DNA from: an uncultured Gammaproteobacteria bacterium
GTDB lineage: Bacteria > Pseudomonadota > Gammaproteobacteria > Pseudomonadales > Azotimanducaceae
Reading direction: 5' to 3'
DNA length: 40,819 nt
Assembly (NCBI GenBank): GCA_913049815.1
Contig: CAJWYI010000008.1
Span: 1-40,819 of the forward strand
A program made the position numbers and the translations under genes. The notes below the pieces were generated by a model. That model saw nothing but the letters and a program-made list of their open reading frames with translations. It did no database searches and had not been told where the DNA came from. Each line of letters begins with the position of its first letter. Positions within the stretch are counted from its first letter, which is position 1. Of this stretch, positions 6,968 to 40,740 are shown piece by piece.

Positions 6968-7054
6968 TGGTGCCGAGGAGAGGACTTGAACCTCCACGGG
7001 GTTACCCCCACTAGCACCTGAAGCTAGCGTGTCTACCAATTTCACCACCTCGGC
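6968..7054 (-). tRNA. tRNA-Leu(CAG)
   Basis: Read on the minus strand, this is an 87-nt tRNA with a perfect seven-pair acceptor stem (GCCGAGG with CCTCGGC), discriminator A and an encoded CCA. The anticodon stem is CTAGC/GCTAG around loop TTCAGGT, giving anticodon CAG, which reads CUG. The long variable arm is that of a class II leucine tRNA, and the T arm carries GGTTCAAGTCC. All conserved positions I checked are intact. It is transcribed against the neighbouring genes from a promoter at 7067-7096. Confidence 0.97.
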
Positions 7055-21967: not shown

Positions 21968-22432
21968 ATGAAAACGATCGAAGGGGATTTGACGGCAACG
22001 ACGGCACGGTTTGCTATCGTTGCAGGTCGCTTCAATGGATTTGTTGTTGAGAGTATGGTTACTGCTGCGGTGGACACTTTGCGCCGACATGGCGTTGACG
22101 AAAACAGTATCACGCTGGTGCGAGTACCAGGTGCTTTTGAGTTGCCGATTGCCGTAGGAAAGATCATTGATCAGCGTAATGTAGACGCAGTCATTACGCT
22201 CGGGGCTGTCATTCGGGGTTCAACACCTCATTTTGAGTATGTTGCTAGCCAATGTGCATCGGGTATCGCTGCCATCTCGCGGGAAACCGGTGTGCCGGTT
22301 TCCTTTGGCGTGTTGACAACAGAGACGATCGAGCAGGCGATAGAACGAGCAGGGACCAAGATGGGTAACAAAGGCGTGGATGCTGCGATGACTGCTCTTG
22401 AAATGGTCTCTTTGCTCCGTCAACTTGAGTGA
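21968..22432 (+). CDS. ribH: 6,7-dimethyl-8-ribityllumazine synthase
   Basis: Condenses the RibD product with 3,4-dihydroxy-2-butanone 4-phosphate to give lumazine, the penultimate flavin precursor. The 154-residue protein shows the family blocks [32 protein letters not shown] and [15 protein letters not shown], the last with the catalytic His. ATAGAGAGGAGCC before the ATG is a good ribosome site. nusB follows after 12 bases, as in most proteobacteria. Confidence 0.96.
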
Positions 22433-22444
22433 TGTTGGTGCCTG

Positions 22445-22882
22445 ATGGCCGATGGTAACAAGTCCCCTGCGGCGCGTAGCAAGGCGAGACGTTTTGCACT
22501 CCAGGCGTTGTACCAGATGCAGATGACCGCGTGTTCCCACTACGATGTGTTATCTGAGTTTATGGCCGATCACGACATGAAAAACGTTGATACCGATCTG
22601 TTGTCAAACCTGTTGGGCGGTATAGAAGCGCACAAAGAGAACCTGTTTGACGCGTTGGTGCCTTTCATGGAGCGTGAAGCCGATCGCCTTGATCCTATAG
22701 AACGAGCCGTGCTGATGATTGGTGCCTTCGAGCTATCATTTTGCCCTGAGGTTCCCTATCGGGTGGCAATCGATGAGAGTATTGAATTGTCCAAGCGATT
22801 CGGTGCAACCGAGAGCCACCGGTTTATCAATGCAGTACTGGATCGGCTGGCCAGGAAAATTCGCATCCATGAGGTTATCTAG
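22445..22882 (+). CDS. nusB: Transcription antitermination factor NusB
   Basis: NusB with S10 binds boxA RNA and supports rRNA antitermination. The 145-residue all-helical protein has the N-terminal ARSKARRFALQALYQMQM, DRLDPIERAVLMIGAFEL in the middle, and the conserved end VAIDESIELSKRFGATESHRFINAVLD. Length and ends are typical. It follows ribH closely in the same operon. Confidence 0.96.
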   Translation: MADGNKSPAARSKARRFALQALYQMQMTACSHYDVLSEFMADHDMKNVDTDLLSNLLGGIEAHKENLFDALVPFMEREADRLDPIERAVLMIGAFELSFCPEVPYRVAIDESIELSKRFGATESHRFINAVLDRLARKIRIHEVI

Positions 22883-30707: not shown

Positions 30708-30797
30708 TGGCTGAGTGAGAGGGATTGTAACCCTCGGAACGCAAAGCGTTCACTTGATTTCGAATCAAGCCCGTTCGGCCAACTCCCGCACCTCTCC
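30708..30797 (-). tRNA. Degenerate tRNA-Ser(CGA), possibly a pseudogene
   Basis: Read on the minus strand, this 90-base sequence has the plan of a class II serine tRNA. The anticodon stem CTTGA/TCAAG around TTCGAAA gives anticodon CGA, the variable arm AACGC-TTT-GCGTT is intact, the T stem is GAGGG/CCCTC, and CCA is encoded. Several normally fixed points are broken: acceptor pairs 1-72 (G-A) and 5-68 (A-A) are mismatched, D-stem pair 11-24 is G-G, and the T loop reads TTACAAT, losing the near-universal C56. It may be non-functional; a standard tRNA caller would score it low. Confidence 0.7.
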
Positions 30798-30889: not shown

Positions 30890-31258
<369 letters not shown>

Positions 31259-35002: not shown

Positions 35003-36688
35003 TCACACACTCTTATATTTGTTCGAGTTTTTTTCAACTACGGCGCCGATCATTGCCTCTGCATGTGCCCTGGATTCGACTGTCAGGTCCTGTCCTGCAA
35101 GCATCCTGGCGAGTTCGTCGATTCGTTTAGTTTCGTTGAGCGTCGTAATTGCGGTTCTTTGCTTACGCCTCCCACCCATCTTCTCAACGACCAGGTGGTG
35201 ATGCCCTTGCGCCGCAACCTGTGGCAGGTGAGTGACGCAGAGAATCTGCTGGTAGCGACCCAATGTTCTGAGTAGTCCGCCCAGGATGTCTGCTGTCGCG
35301 CCACCAATGCCGACATCAACCTCGTCGAAGACAAGCGTCTGGTGCTGACCACTCGTCTCGGCGATGGCTAACTGGATCGCGAGGCTGATTCGAGATAATT
35401 CACCACCTGAGGCGATGCGCCGTAAGCTGCCGGGTGTCTGGTTCGGGTTGGTTGCAATCAAAAACTCAAGATCATCGATCCCGGTTTCGCGAACAGCATC
35501 ACTCTGAAGTTGCGTTACCTCCATCCTGGCACTTTCCATGTTGAGTTGCGCCAGTATTTCGCCGACACGATTTTCAAGAGCGATGGCAGCGGTGGCTCTC
35601 CGACGGCTCAGAACTTGCGCAAGATCCAAGAGCACTGCTTCCTGTTCGATACATAGTTTTGTCAAAGAGGCAATGTTGTCCTCGTCGTTATTTATCTGCG
35701 CCAATTCTGAGTGGATGGAAGTGACCAGCTTCGAAAGCGCGTCGGGTTCGATGCGATGTTTCCTTGCGAGTTCGTAGAGACGTGACAGACGTGTTTCGAC
35801 TTCGCTGAGTCTTTGAGGATCAATGTTGACCGCGTCTCGGTAGCGATTCAGCTCAACGAGCGCTTCAGCCACCTGAATGGCTGCATTGTCCAGTAGTTCT
35901 TTGGCTTCCTTCGCTTCGCTCAGATGCGGATCGGAAAGATGGCGTATCGCGATTTCAATGTGGTGCATTGCACCGCGATCAGGGTCATCTAATAGGCTGT
36001 CTATGTCCGTCAGGTGTTGCGTGATGCTCTGTGCATTGGCCAGCCGTCGTTGTTCCTGTTCTAGTGAGGCCTGTTCCCCTTCGGTGACGTTCGCTTCTTG
36101 CAGCTCTTCCAGCTGGTAACTCAGCAACTGGCGATGGGCATCAGTTTCTTGGTTTCTCTTGACAAGTGAGTCGAGTTTTTTCGAGGTGTTGGACCAGGCG
36201 TTGTAGGCGTCAAGGGTAGCGTCCACGTCGTCCTGCAAACCGCCGAACGCATCGAGCAGTTGAAGGTGGCTTGCTTTGCGCGCGAGTGACTGGTGTTCGT
36301 GCTGCGAGTGGATGTCCATGAGTAACTCGCCCAGTTCTTTCATATCAGAAGCGGTGCTGGGACTGCCGTTGATGAAAGCACGACTCCGGCCGTCGCGGTT
36401 GATGACCCGCCGCAAGATGGCAACTTCGTGCTCCAATTCCCGTTCAGACAACCATAGGAATGCAGCTGAATCAGGATTAATATCAAAGACAGCGTGAATT
36501 TCTGCACGTTCACGTTGCGGAGCGATCAGAGATTGATCGGCACGATCACCCAGGGCCATCGACAATGCATTGAGTATGATGGACTTTCCCGCTCCAGTCT
36601 CACCGGTTACTACGCTCATACCATCGGCGAAGTCGATTTCCAGTTCGTCTACGAGTACGAAATGACTGACTGAAAGATGGCTCAACAT
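35003..36688 (-). CDS. recN: DNA repair protein RecN
   Basis: An SMC-like ATPase in double-strand break repair. The 561-residue product from ATG 36688 starts MLSHLSVSHFVLVDELEIDF and has Walker A GETGAGKS near residue 30, a DIHSQHEHQ block, a long coiled-coil middle, and the C-terminal head ASGGELSRISLAIQLA with Walker B LVFDEVDVGIGG. The frame runs 22 codons further upstream without conservation. Divergent from the hrcA remnant, as in many relatives where recN, hrcA and grpE adjoin. Confidence 0.95.
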   Translation of the reverse strand: MLSHLSVSHFVLVDELEIDFADGMSVVTGETGAGKSIILNALSMALGDRADQSLIAPQRERAEIHAVFDINPDSAAFLWLSERELEHEVAILRRVINRDGRSRAFINGSPSTASDMKELGELLMDIHSQHEHQSLARKASHLQLLDAFGGLQDDVDATLDAYNAWSNTSKKLDSLVKRNQETDAHRQLLSYQLEELQEANVTEGEQASLEQEQRRLANAQSITQHLTDIDSLLDDPDRGAMHHIEIAIRHLSDPHLSEAKEAKELLDNAAIQVAEALVELNRYRDAVNIDPQRLSEVETRLSRLYELARKHRIEPDALSKLVTSIHSELAQINNDEDNIASLTKLCIEQEAVLLDLAQVLSRRRATAAIALENRVGEILAQLNMESARMEVTQLQSDAVRETGIDDLEFLIATNPNQTPGSLRRIASGGELSRISLAIQLAIAETSGQHQTLVFDEVDVGIGGATADILGGLLRTLGRYQQILCVTHLPQVAAQGHHHLVVEKMGGRRKQRTAITTLNETKRIDELARMLAGQDLTVESRAHAEAMIGAVVEKNSNKYKSV

Positions 36689-36849
36689 GAGGTGATTAAA
36701 CTGCGGTACCTGGATCAAAACAACCCAGCGTAGCACGTGGTCTCTGTGAGCCATCTTTGACGGTCGTGCTTTATTGGCGCCGGCCGCTAAACTGAATCCA
36801 GGCGCAATGAGAGACGGAATTACGGTAACGTCTGGAGAGTAAGCGTCGG

Positions 36850-37895
36850 ATGGTTATCGCGCGGCAGGAATCAGCGATCGATCGCAGCATATTTTGAAAT
36901 CGCTCGTTGGGCTTTTACATCGATGGGGGACAGCTTGTCGCCTCCCAGAGATTGTCGAAGTACAGTGCACCATCTCTAAGTTCTGCAACTGTTCGGAATA
37001 TCCTGGCTGAACTCGAAGGAGAGGGCTATGTAGGATCTCCGCGCACTTCAGCGGGTAGGTTACCACCAGCAAAGCTTACCGATTGTTTGTCGACAGCCTG
37101 ATTCAGGGGCAGCCGATCGAGAGTGAAAATCTCGATGAGCTGAAACGTCAGTTGGATCCGGACAAAAGCTCACAGGGGCTCGTGAAAACAGCATCAGGAT
37201 TGCGTTCAGAAGTAACTCGCATGGCAGGATTGGTCACACTGCCAAAGCGAGATCAGGTTGTCCCTCGACATGTCGAGTTTCTGAGCCTAGGCGATCATAG
37301 AATTCTGGTTATCCTGGTACTCGATGATCTTGAAGTTCAGAACAGGGTCATCTATGCCAATGAGCCCTATTCAGATGCCCAGTTGCGTGAGGCTGCGAAT
37401 TTCCTTAATCACAAGTTCAGTGGACAGGTGCTATCGGGCACCCGAAATCATCTCATTAGTTCGATGAAATTAGACCAGTAACATATGAACCGAGTGATGG
37501 AGACCACTCTGGCTGGGGCAGAAAAGGCGTTTGTTCAGAAAGAGGAATCGGACTATGTCCTTGCCGGCCAGGATAATCTGATTTCTGAAGACGATCCTCT
37601 TGTTATTTCAGACATCTGCGAGTTGTTGCAAGCCTTCGCAATCAAGGCAGACATTCTTGACCTGTTGGAACGTTGCATGGGCTTCCCTGGGATTCAGCTG
37701 TTCATTGGCTCTGAATCCGGATACTAGCCCCTCTACGACTCCAGTCTTGTTACAGCGCCCTATGGTGTTGCAGGGGATACGGTCGGTGTTCTTGGCGTCA
37801 CCCGAGCGACAAGAATGGCTTATGATCGAGTGACTCCGGTCGTCGAAGCGACCGCACGTGAGCTGAGTGCAGCGTTGAACAACTCCCGTCACTGA
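36850..37895 (+). pseudogene. hrcA: Decayed heat-shock repressor HrcA
   Basis: Three frames together give an almost complete HrcA, which normally represses heat-shock genes through CIRCE operators. The order is: DRSQHILKSLVGL (36876-36914), a one-base insertion in TTTT at 36913-36916, YIDGGQLVASQRLSKYS and SSATVRNILAELEGEGYV, a one-base deletion near 37073, then YRLFVDSLIQGQPIES. A TAA at 37479-37481 and a TAG at 37725-37727 break the last frame, which still reads on through LVTAPYGVAGDTVGVLGV and TRMAYDRVTPVVE to a natural stop at 37893. No clean start codon is visible. Four lesions make sequencing error unlikely. Confidence 0.9.
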
Positions 37896-37926: not shown

Positions 37927-37955
37927 CTTGAATGAAGGGTGGCGCGCCCCCATAT
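37927..37955 (+). promoter_or_regulatory. Sigma-32 (RpoH) heat-shock promoter of grpE
   Basis: CTTGAA (37927-37932), a 15-base spacer and CCCCATAT (37948-37955) match the sigma-32 consensus CTTGAA and CCCCATNT exactly. It lies about 88 bases before the grpE ATG. I saw no CIRCE inverted repeat (TTAGCACTC with GAGTGCTAA) in the 36700-38820 region. Confidence 0.88.
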
Positions 37956-38042: not shown

Positions 38043-38702
38043 ATGAGCGTTAAAGACGACAGCGAGCAGGACAACGGGCAGAACAACGATCTGGACGCCG
38101 ATGCGTGCCCAGACGACGTTGGGCGTGAAGTGGCGGGCGCCCAAAAGGATAGCGTAGCTAGCAGTGCTACAGATGAATCCGCAGCACCCGACGGTAACGG
38201 GTGCCAGGCGGATGAAAATGCCAAAGCTGCCCTGGAAGCCGCGCTTGCCGAGGCAGAGAAACTTCGTGATGTAGCGCTTCGTGCCGAAGCAGAGATGCAG
38301 AACGTACGTCGGCGAGCTGGGATTGATGTAGAGAACGCCCATCGTTTTGCCCTGGAGCGCTTTGTGAATAATCTTCTGCCTGTCGTGGATTCCCTGGATA
38401 AGGCGGTTGAAAGCTTAGAACAGACCGTGGCGATGGATGACACGACACAAGCTATCGCTGAAGGTGTTGGGCTGTGTCAGAGGATGCTTGTCGATGTGCT
38501 AGAAAAAGAGGGTGTGTCCGTGGTTGACCCTGCCGGGGAGCCCTTCGATCCTAATCTGCATCAGGCGATGTCGATGGTTGAGAATCCGGATGTTGAGCCC
38601 AATTCGGTGGTTGCGGTGGTTCAGCGGGGTTACACGTTGAACGATCGTCTGGTGCGACCAGCGATGGTCATGGTGTCCAAAGCTAGTGAAGGAACGAACT
38701 GA
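38043..38702 (+). CDS. grpE: Nucleotide exchange factor GrpE
   Basis: GrpE releases ADP from DnaK. The 219-residue protein has an acidic, disordered N-terminus of about 60 residues, a coiled coil (ALEAALAEAEKLRDVALRAEAEMQNVRRR), the four-helix bundle (FVNNLLPVVDSLDKAVE) and the beta-wing with FDPNLHQAMSMVE and VVQRGYTLNDRLVRPAMVMV. The sigma-32 promoter stands upstream, and dnaK follows after 118 bases. Confidence 0.96.
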   Translation: MSVKDDSEQDNGQNNDLDADACPDDVGREVAGAQKDSVASSATDESAAPDGNGCQADENAKAALEAALAEAEKLRDVALRAEAEMQNVRRRAGIDVENAHRFALERFVNNLLPVVDSLDKAVESLEQTVAMDDTTQAIAEGVGLCQRMLVDVLEKEGVSVVDPAGEPFDPNLHQAMSMVENPDVEPNSVVAVVQRGYTLNDRLVRPAMVMVSKASEGTN

Positions 38703-38820
38703 AACAAACATCGCATTGAATGCCGGTCATCCGCACCACAATTAATATTAGATATTGAACAGAGAGAAACTTGTCGCCCGGCGACACACCTAGAGCCAGA
38801 GGCGTAACGGAGACAGACAC

Positions 38821-40740
38821 ATGGCAAAAATCATTGGAATCGACCTGGGTACGACGAACTCTTGCGTCGCGGTACTGGAAGGTGACCGTGTCAAGATCAT
38901 TGAAAATTCGGAAGGTGATCGAACAACCCCTTCCGTCATTGGTTATAGCGATGATGATGAAACGCTTGTGGGGCAAGCGGCGAAACGTCAGGCGGTTACC
39001 AATCCCGAAAACACTCTCTTTGCAGTCAAGCGGCTGATTGGGCGCCGTTTTGAAGATGCTGTGGTGCAGCGAGATATCGATATGGTCCCTTACAAGATTG
39101 CCGGTGCCGACAATGGAGATGCGTGGGTCGAGGTCAAGGGCGAGAAGATGGCACCGCCTCAGATCTCGGCACAGGTCTTGTCGAAGATGAAGAAGACCGC
39201 TGAAGACTACCTTGGAGAGACCATTACAGAAGCGGTCATCACGGTACCAGCCTATTTCAACGACTCGCAGCGGCAGGCGACGAAGGATGCTGGGCGAATT
39301 GCGGGATTGGATGTAAAGCGCATTATCAACGAGCCGACAGCCGCCGCACTGGCGTACGGCATCGATAAGGACCGTGGTGATTCCACGATCGCGGTGTACG
39401 ACCTGGGTGGTGGTACGTTCGATATTTCTATTATCGAAATTGCAGACGTTGATGGGGAAAAGCAGTTTGAGGTGTTGTCGACCAATGGCGACACATTCCT
39501 CGGAGGAGAGGATTTTGATCTTCGAATCATTGACTACCTGGCTGAGGAGTTCGAAAAGGAAAATGGTATTGACCTCCACAACGATCCATTGGCATTACAG
39601 CGCCTGAAGGAAGCTGCAGAAAAAGCCAAGATTGAGTTGTCCAGCAGTGGACAAACCGAGGTTAATTTGCCGTACATCACAGCCGATTCAACAGGTCCAA
39701 AGCACTTGGTCTTGAAAATGACCCAGTCAAAACTGGAGTCGCTGGTTGAAGATCTCGTTGATCGCACGATCGAGCCGCTGAGAACGGCCCTTAAAGATGC
39801 AGGGACTGGTGTTTCCGAGATCGACGAGGTGATTCTGGTGGGCGGTCAGACTCGGATGCCCCTGGTCCAAAGCAAGGTTCGAGAGTTCTTTGGCAAAGAT
39901 CCACGTAAAGACGTCAACCCTGACGAGGCCGTGGCAATGGGTGCAGCTATTCAGGCTGCGGTTTTGGCTGGCGATGTGAAGGATGTTCTGCTGTTAGATG
40001 TGACACCACTGTCGCTGGGCATCGAAACGATGGGTGGTGTGATGAGTGCGTTGATCGATAAGAACACGACGATCCCTACCAAGAAGGCGCAGGTCTTTTC
40101 GACGGCTGATGACAATCAACCAGCAGTGACAATTCATGTCCTACAGGGTGAGCGTAAGCAGGCAGGGCAGAATAAATCTCTAGGAAGATTTGATTTGGCC
40201 GATATTCCACCAGCGCCCCGTGGTGTGCCACAGATTGAAGTGACGTTCGACATCGATGCCAACGGTATCCTCAATGTGTCGGCAAAAGACCAGGCTACCG
40301 GGAAGGAACAATCAATTGTGATTCAGGCTTCTTCAGGGCTATCCGAGGACGAGATCGAGCAGATGGTGCGCGATGCGGAGTCGCATGCAGAAGAGGATCG
40401 GAAATTTGAGGAGCTCGTGACGGTTCGCAATACGGCCGACAGTCTCATGCATGCCACCGGCAAGACGCTGGAAGAGTCTGCAGATCAGGTTGAACCTGAG
40501 GAGAAGGCTGCCATTGAATCAGCCCTGGCTGATCTCGAGGAAGCCCTTAAGGGTGATGACAAGGAAGAGATTGAAGCGAAAACCCGAGCGTTGACTGAAG
40601 CCTCTGGCGGCCTAGCACAGCGCATGTACGAAGAGCAGGCGGCGGCCGCAGCCGATGGAGGTCCGGCGCCGGAGTCCAGCGCAGAGCCAGACGCGGTTGA
40701 TGCCGAATTCGAAGAAGTGAGAGATGACAAAAAGGACTAG
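38821..40740 (+). CDS. dnaK: Chaperone DnaK (Hsp70)
   Basis: The 639-residue Hsp70 is complete. The ATPase domain starts [19 protein letters not shown] and contains [29 protein letters not shown] and [11 protein letters not shown]. The substrate domain follows from about residue 390 ([15 protein letters not shown]), then the lid, ending in a Glu/Asp/Ala-rich tail with the conserved EFEEV motif near the end. ACGGAG precedes the ATG. It is presumably transcribed with grpE from the sigma-32 promoter. An intrinsic terminator follows, so dnaJ, if next, has its own promoter or relies on readthrough. Confidence 0.98.

Follow-up and report, generated by a model that had tools for sequence, protein, structure and literature searches.

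The hrcA locus and its neighbours

The window, by which we mean the whole 40.8 kb stretch of DNA analysed here, makes up contig C8 of a 2.78 Mb metagenome-assembled genome (MAG), which comprises 218 contigs and is 86% complete. The genome (G000) belongs to the genus of OM182 bacterium MED-G24, a marine gammaproteobacterium, and the MED-G24 genome (G001, whose contig C59 matches NTKD01000062.1 at 100%) is the only one of the same genus among the 57 relatives searched. A search of the open literature returned no paper on the OM182 clade among the matches listed. In the window, recN on the minus strand is followed by hrcA and then by grpE and dnaK on the plus strand (38043-40740), and G001 has the same gene order. 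The features are:

35003-36754, minus strand: recN, intact neighbour and control gene (PF02463)
36840-36842, plus strand: in-frame TAA met by the upstream start candidates of hrcA (read from the sequence)
36861-37895, plus strand: hrcA pseudogene, whole remnant (PF01628 with two inner stops; aligned with G001)
36861-36863, plus strand: GCG in place of the likeliest start, GTG, of G001 (alignment; start inferred)
36913-36916, plus strand: TTTT run with a +1 frame shift (sequence and alignment)
37073-37076, plus strand: -1 frame shift (sequence and alignment)
37479-37481, plus strand: in-frame TAA (read from the sequence)
37725-37727, plus strand: in-frame TAG (read from the sequence)
37927-37953, plus strand: sigma-32-type promoter CTTGAAT-N14-CCCCAT before grpE (12/13 letters)
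38043-38702, plus strand: grpE, intact (PF01025, 169.8 bits)
38821-40740, plus strand: dnaK, intact (PF00012, full length)

The window also holds a tmRNA gene with the tag ANDENYALAA (30890-31258, minus strand) and genes for tRNA-Leu (6968-7054, minus) and tRNA-Ser (30708-30797, minus). Similarity to phage records gave no match.

The preliminary description of the locus reported an hrcA broken by a +1 shift in the TTTT run, a -1 shift near 37073 and stops at 37479 and 37725, next to intact heat-shock genes. All four lesions were recovered by reading the sequence and from the Pfam pieces, and the Pfam matches to grpE and dnaK agree with the second part of the claim. The HrcA reading frame is left at the TTTT run and regained near 37073-37076, such that the two shifts compensate. 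We found one further lesion: the GTG of G001 (V-SEISDRS) is GCG in the window, with starts inferred from the alignment, and the start candidates further upstream in the hrcA frame are stopped by the TAA at 36840. With two shifts, two stops and a changed start, the window copy offers no single open frame with a start codon.

The C-terminal domain of HrcA (PF01628) is present in three pieces separated by the stops (profile positions 3-99, 106-177 and 181-214), and the score of 157.6 bits on read-through in the profile search is high enough that a chance match is not an issue. The winged-helix family PF03444 matches above the cut-off in the hrcA of G001; the in-frame piece at 36919-37071 of the window had no match up to an E-value of 0.1, although this piece is short and the result is weak when taken alone. 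Judged by its sequence, the hrcA of the window is dead.

Intact orthologues are close at hand. The hrcA frame of G001 is open, and an HrcA domain was matched in 33 of the 36 other same-family genomes (the 37 genomes G000-G036 include that of the window), none of them with an inner stop. In the comparison with close relatives proposed earlier, the copies of G001 and 32 further same-family genomes are thus free of inner stops. Of these matches, 31 span the whole domain and two are cut at contig ends (G011 and G029). There was no match in G024, G025 and G036. Nor did the profile search find a second hrcA in the 86%-complete assembly of the window genome.

Reality and age of the damage

Within the 40.8 kb of the window, 36 other genes with a frame match in G001 are unbroken within their own limits, and on this ground we rejected low assembly quality or widespread pseudogene formation across the window as the cause. 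Two genes common to L238 and L239 were entered once in this count. Three of the 36 have a single stop within the match, ahead of where the window's own frame has its first start codon. In L239 9955-11442, residues 1 to 81 align with a different frame lying opposite a gene on the plus strand, and this part was taken as non-coding. Window frames 21968-22432 and 22445-22882 were left out, as were small, antisense or non-matching G001 frames (L240: 6052-6306; L238: 791-1270, 5505-5795 and 7002-7484; L239: 4484-4807, 4813-5379, 7015-7383, 12038-12304 and 12365-12667) and 11 frames without a match. Several of the left-out frames have stops in the window and were treated as non-coding.

Constraint was compared at invariant columns, defined for hrcA from 18 of 80 named relatives' loci (the G001 record aside, the 12 of highest similarity and six of lower rank) and for the controls recN, grpE and dnaK from 17 of the same relatives. 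Among 103 invariant columns of hrcA, 13 are changed in the window alone, none in G001 alone and one in both. The corresponding counts are 0, 3 and 2 in 90 columns of recN, 0, 0 and 2 in 37 columns of grpE, and 0, 1 and 2 in 324 columns of dnaK, such that the pooled controls (451 columns) have no change in the window alone and four in G001 alone. Constraint on hrcA is thus relaxed beyond the lesions themselves (13/103 versus 0/451, Fisher p ~2e-10; versus recN and grpE only, 0/127, Fisher p ~2e-5; the columns are not fully independent). The changed residues include the winged helix and the core. In overall divergence from G001, hrcA is not above its neighbours (82% identity, versus 73% for recN and 69% for grpE), and in these alignments the relaxation is visible at conserved columns only.

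The shifts and stops could in principle have been introduced into an intact gene by faulty sequencing or assembly. The sequence comes from a metagenome assembly, one of the shifts sits in a four-T run, and the overall identity of hrcA to G001 is normal. However, hrcA has both shifts, both stops and the start loss, together with the 13 window-only changes at invariant columns, whereas the 36 comparable neighbour genes are unbroken. Given that the damage is concentrated in one gene and in its most conserved residues, random base errors are unlikely. We consider an error of this kind very improbable, and from the alignments the damage to hrcA looks real. Less probable still is programmed frame shifting combined with stop read-through, which the compensating shifts and the still recognisable domain might suggest: hrcA lacks an in-frame start, its winged helix and core differ at otherwise invariant positions, and the hrcA genes of relatives are plain open frames. 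We rejected this reading on the start loss and the changed residues, and give it practically no weight.

The surviving sequence had also been taken as a sign of recent loss. Over 339 readable codons, hrcA of the window and G001 share 82.3% amino-acid identity, with dN of 0.096 and dN/dS of ~0.04. Six neighbour genes with computable dN/dS range from 0.026 to 0.078; in dnaK, grpE and recN synonymous sites are saturated between the two genomes. Given that hrcA lies within the range of its neighbours, most of its divergence accrued under selection. Simulated neutral decay (transition bias of 3, all sites alike) of 0.05-0.08 substitutions per site produces on average 9.7 to 15.4 changes among the invariant residues, along with 1.4 to 2.3 stops. 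With 0.03 substitutions per site, at least 13 changes arise with P 0.006, and at 0.10 substitutions per site 13 or fewer changes arise with P 0.10. Under this model hrcA would have decayed by about 0.05-0.08 substitutions per site, and the changes at invariant columns together with the simulation support a recent loss. It may fall in roughly the last tenth of the lineage, taking a synonymous distance between the two species of ~2 or more, a value that is itself poorly known.

Operators and promoters in the genome and the family

HrcA binds the CIRCE operator and releases it when GroEL is occupied. We searched 58 genomes for CIRCE (TTAGCACTC-N9-GAGTGCTAA) with up to three mismatches, and located groES, grpE and rpoH in the same genomes. 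In the window genome, the only CIRCE within three mismatches lies before groES on a contig other than that of hrcA (C54:15476-15502). It is perfect, with all 18 arm positions equal to the consensus, and sits directly behind a promoter-like TTGAAA-TATTAT that is also sigma-32-like (11/13 letters). The 400 bases before each of the two rpoH genes hold no CIRCE (best 9 and 7 mismatches), nor do the 400 bases upstream of rpoH in G001 (best 8 mismatches). Of groEL in the window genome only a C-terminal piece was assembled, and it lies on another contig; neither groES nor groEL was found in G001.

Across the 37 same-family genomes, groES was found in 35 and is preceded by CIRCE in 33 (all but G025 and G028; the count includes G026, where CIRCE lies 203 bases from groES, beyond the 200-base limit). 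The rpoH gene was found in all 37 and has CIRCE in front in 26; the 11 without are G000, G001, G002, G008, G009, G021, G023, G026, G033, G034 and G036. Of the CIRCE-like sites with at most two mismatches, 57 of 59 lie before groES or rpoH, and the other two are one in G027 close to the end of a contig and one in G005 that is unassigned. The 13 sites with three mismatches comprise one at groES (G007), one at rpoH (G015), a second groES site (G009) and 10 elsewhere. Sites of this class are partly due to chance, given that a reversed control pattern also matches in many genomes, three times in that of the window. Among 11 similar named relatives, one of which (G066) is the same assembly as G015, CIRCE with at most two mismatches precedes groES in 10 and rpoH in eight, with a ninth rpoH site at three mismatches; one of the 11 has no CIRCE at all.

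Examples of CIRCE before rpoH are L038, L046, L048 and L055, and in most rpoH promoters inspected by eye the right arm overlaps a probable -10 box. A second CIRCE-like site with three mismatches occurs 41 bases upstream of the main groES CIRCE in L039, L218, L227, L230, L234 and L235; it overlaps a probable -35 box (TTGACT) and is missing in the window genome. A second rpoH above the family cut-off is present in 7 of the 11 genomes without CIRCE at rpoH and in 4 of the 26 with it (Fisher p 0.006, uncorrected for kinship and assembly gaps).

The 72 CIRCE-like sites of the 37 same-family genomes include none next to grpE. The promoter before grpE follows the sigma-32 consensus CTTGAAA-N11-16-CCCCAT, as given in PMC545781. 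No shuffle out of 200 gave as good a match (base composition kept only), and at least 11 of 13 letters are retained in 16 of 17 genomes; 15 of the 80 relatives' loci were drawn for the promoter and decay analyses. The grpE-dnaK genes are probably under sigma-32 (RpoH) through their own promoter. The original proposal of a repressor dropped while its targets are kept thus stands for the repressor, but not for the adjacent grpE-dnaK as HrcA targets. A search for CIRCE upstream of groES and dnaK had been suggested, and an intact second hrcA with CIRCE sites had been named as evidence against loss; of this only the groES operator was found, with no site beside grpE-dnaK and no second hrcA.

The perfect groES operator could mean that HrcA function persists, supplied by a second, intact hrcA within the 14% of the genome missing from the assembly or by an unrelated CIRCE-binding protein, and a MAG completeness of 86% leaves room for the former. 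However, among 40 genomes with an hrcA match not one has two overlapping copies (G029 has two non-overlapping pieces), and at the estimated age of the loss a perfect CIRCE requires no HrcA; we regard this as quite unlikely. The probability that a perfect CIRCE survives 0.05-0.08 neutral substitutions per site is 0.41 to 0.24. Given that the loss is recent, the operator is compatible with it, and selection on the orphan CIRCE is not implied; as a necessary reading we rejected it. Selection for an HrcA-independent role, for example at the transcript 5' end, would nevertheless account for 18 of 18 consensus arm positions beside a dead hrcA, and G025 has CIRCE at rpoH with no hrcA found. Against this stand the survival by chance alone and the loss of CIRCE from groES in G025, and we hold such a role to be unlikely. 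A recent loss of hrcA with a surviving operator remains our preferred reading.

Other members of the family show related losses. Of the two rpoH genes in G025 (96% complete), one has a CIRCE with two mismatches (L131); hrcA was not found in the genome, groES has no CIRCE (best 8 mismatches; L130), and the 8 kb around grpE gave no recN or hrcA match, using a set of hrcA queries that left out G035. Its operators are the reverse of those in the window genome, with CIRCE at rpoH and none at groES. In G036 (1.7 Mb, 91% complete; L133), recN adjoins grpE with hrcA missing between them, groES and groEL were not found, and rpoH has no CIRCE. G024 (72% complete) lacks both hrcA and grpE and both of its CIRCE sites are perfect, so we took the absence of hrcA as an assembly gap. 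The genomes with hrcA lost or broken tend to be small (completeness-corrected sizes of 3.2, 2.2 and 1.9 Mb for G000, G025 and G036; one-sided Mann-Whitney p 0.006 versus 33 genomes, n=3, kinship not corrected).

A proposed order of events and its meaning

From the distribution of operators, the probable binding sites of HrcA in this family are the CIRCE at groES and, in the majority of genomes, that at rpoH, and grpE-dnaK would follow sigma-32. Given that neither genome of the genus of MED-G24 has CIRCE at rpoH, the loss of the rpoH operator probably predates the split between the two species, with that of hrcA following it; gain of the rpoH site in the other genomes, instead of loss in this genus, is less likely. 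The loss at rpoH would have left groES as the sole predicted HrcA target. Then hrcA would have died in the window species, with the groES CIRCE outliving it, and groESL would now be expressed without the HrcA brake, presumably at a raised level. By analogy with Lactobacillus plantarum, it is likely that groESL loses its repressor and that sigma-32 keeps heat control. According to PMC3842655, HrcA repression depends on GroELS availability, and removal of hrcA in Lactobacillus plantarum raises groES-groEL and not grpE-dnaK-dnaJ. We are confident in the core of this scenario, namely a recent hrcA pseudogene, a probable earlier loss of the rpoH operator, groES as the only predicted target left, and groESL that would be unrepressed with heat control left to sigma-32. 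That HrcA of the family stood above sigma-32, gating both chaperonin and sigma factor, and that the window genome records a stepwise collapse in which the last operator outlived hrcA, is a broader proposal that could equally well prove right or wrong.

The remnant belongs by sequence and place to the HrcA/CIRCE system (PF01628, PF03444), and shares with it a perfect CIRCE before groES; it differs in that the repressor gene is dead and the grpE-dnaK operon has no CIRCE. A close parallel is Geobacter sulfurreducens, for which PMC545781 predicts an HrcA site before both groESL and rpoH. However, hrcA is intact there and CIRCE is also found at the hrcA-grpE-dnaK-dnaJ operon, whereas the family of the window has none at that operon and its genus has no rpoH site. 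Erosion of the HrcA branch is likewise described in Desulfotalea psychrophila, which lacks hrcA and CIRCE (PMC545781), and in Spiroplasma melliferum, whose CIRCE is decaying (PMC5138195). Decay in Spiroplasma affects the sites, whereas the window genome shows a gene remnant and a perfect operator together. Loss of hrcA as a type of event is already known, and HrcA control of rpoH has already been predicted for Geobacter sulfurreducens (PMC545781). For a gammaproteobacterial hrcA pseudogene, CIRCE without HrcA or CIRCE before rpoH in this group of bacteria, a search of the open literature, mostly without subscription journals, gave no report among the matches listed, and we claim no priority.

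Loss of hrcA is a common kind of event, with no match in 15 of 21 other-family genomes of the same order, and what we describe is ordinary gene loss caught unusually early. It rises above the routine in that the remnant coexists with a perfect operator and the CIRCE sites of the family point to rpoH as an HrcA-controlled gene. Given that repressor and operator have decayed to different extents across neighbouring lineages, the order in which such a regulon collapses is testable. With CIRCE preceding rpoH in 26 of the 37 genomes of the family, HrcA may repress the heat-shock sigma factor, which would put a sigma factor under the control of a repressor in uncultured bacteria of the ocean.
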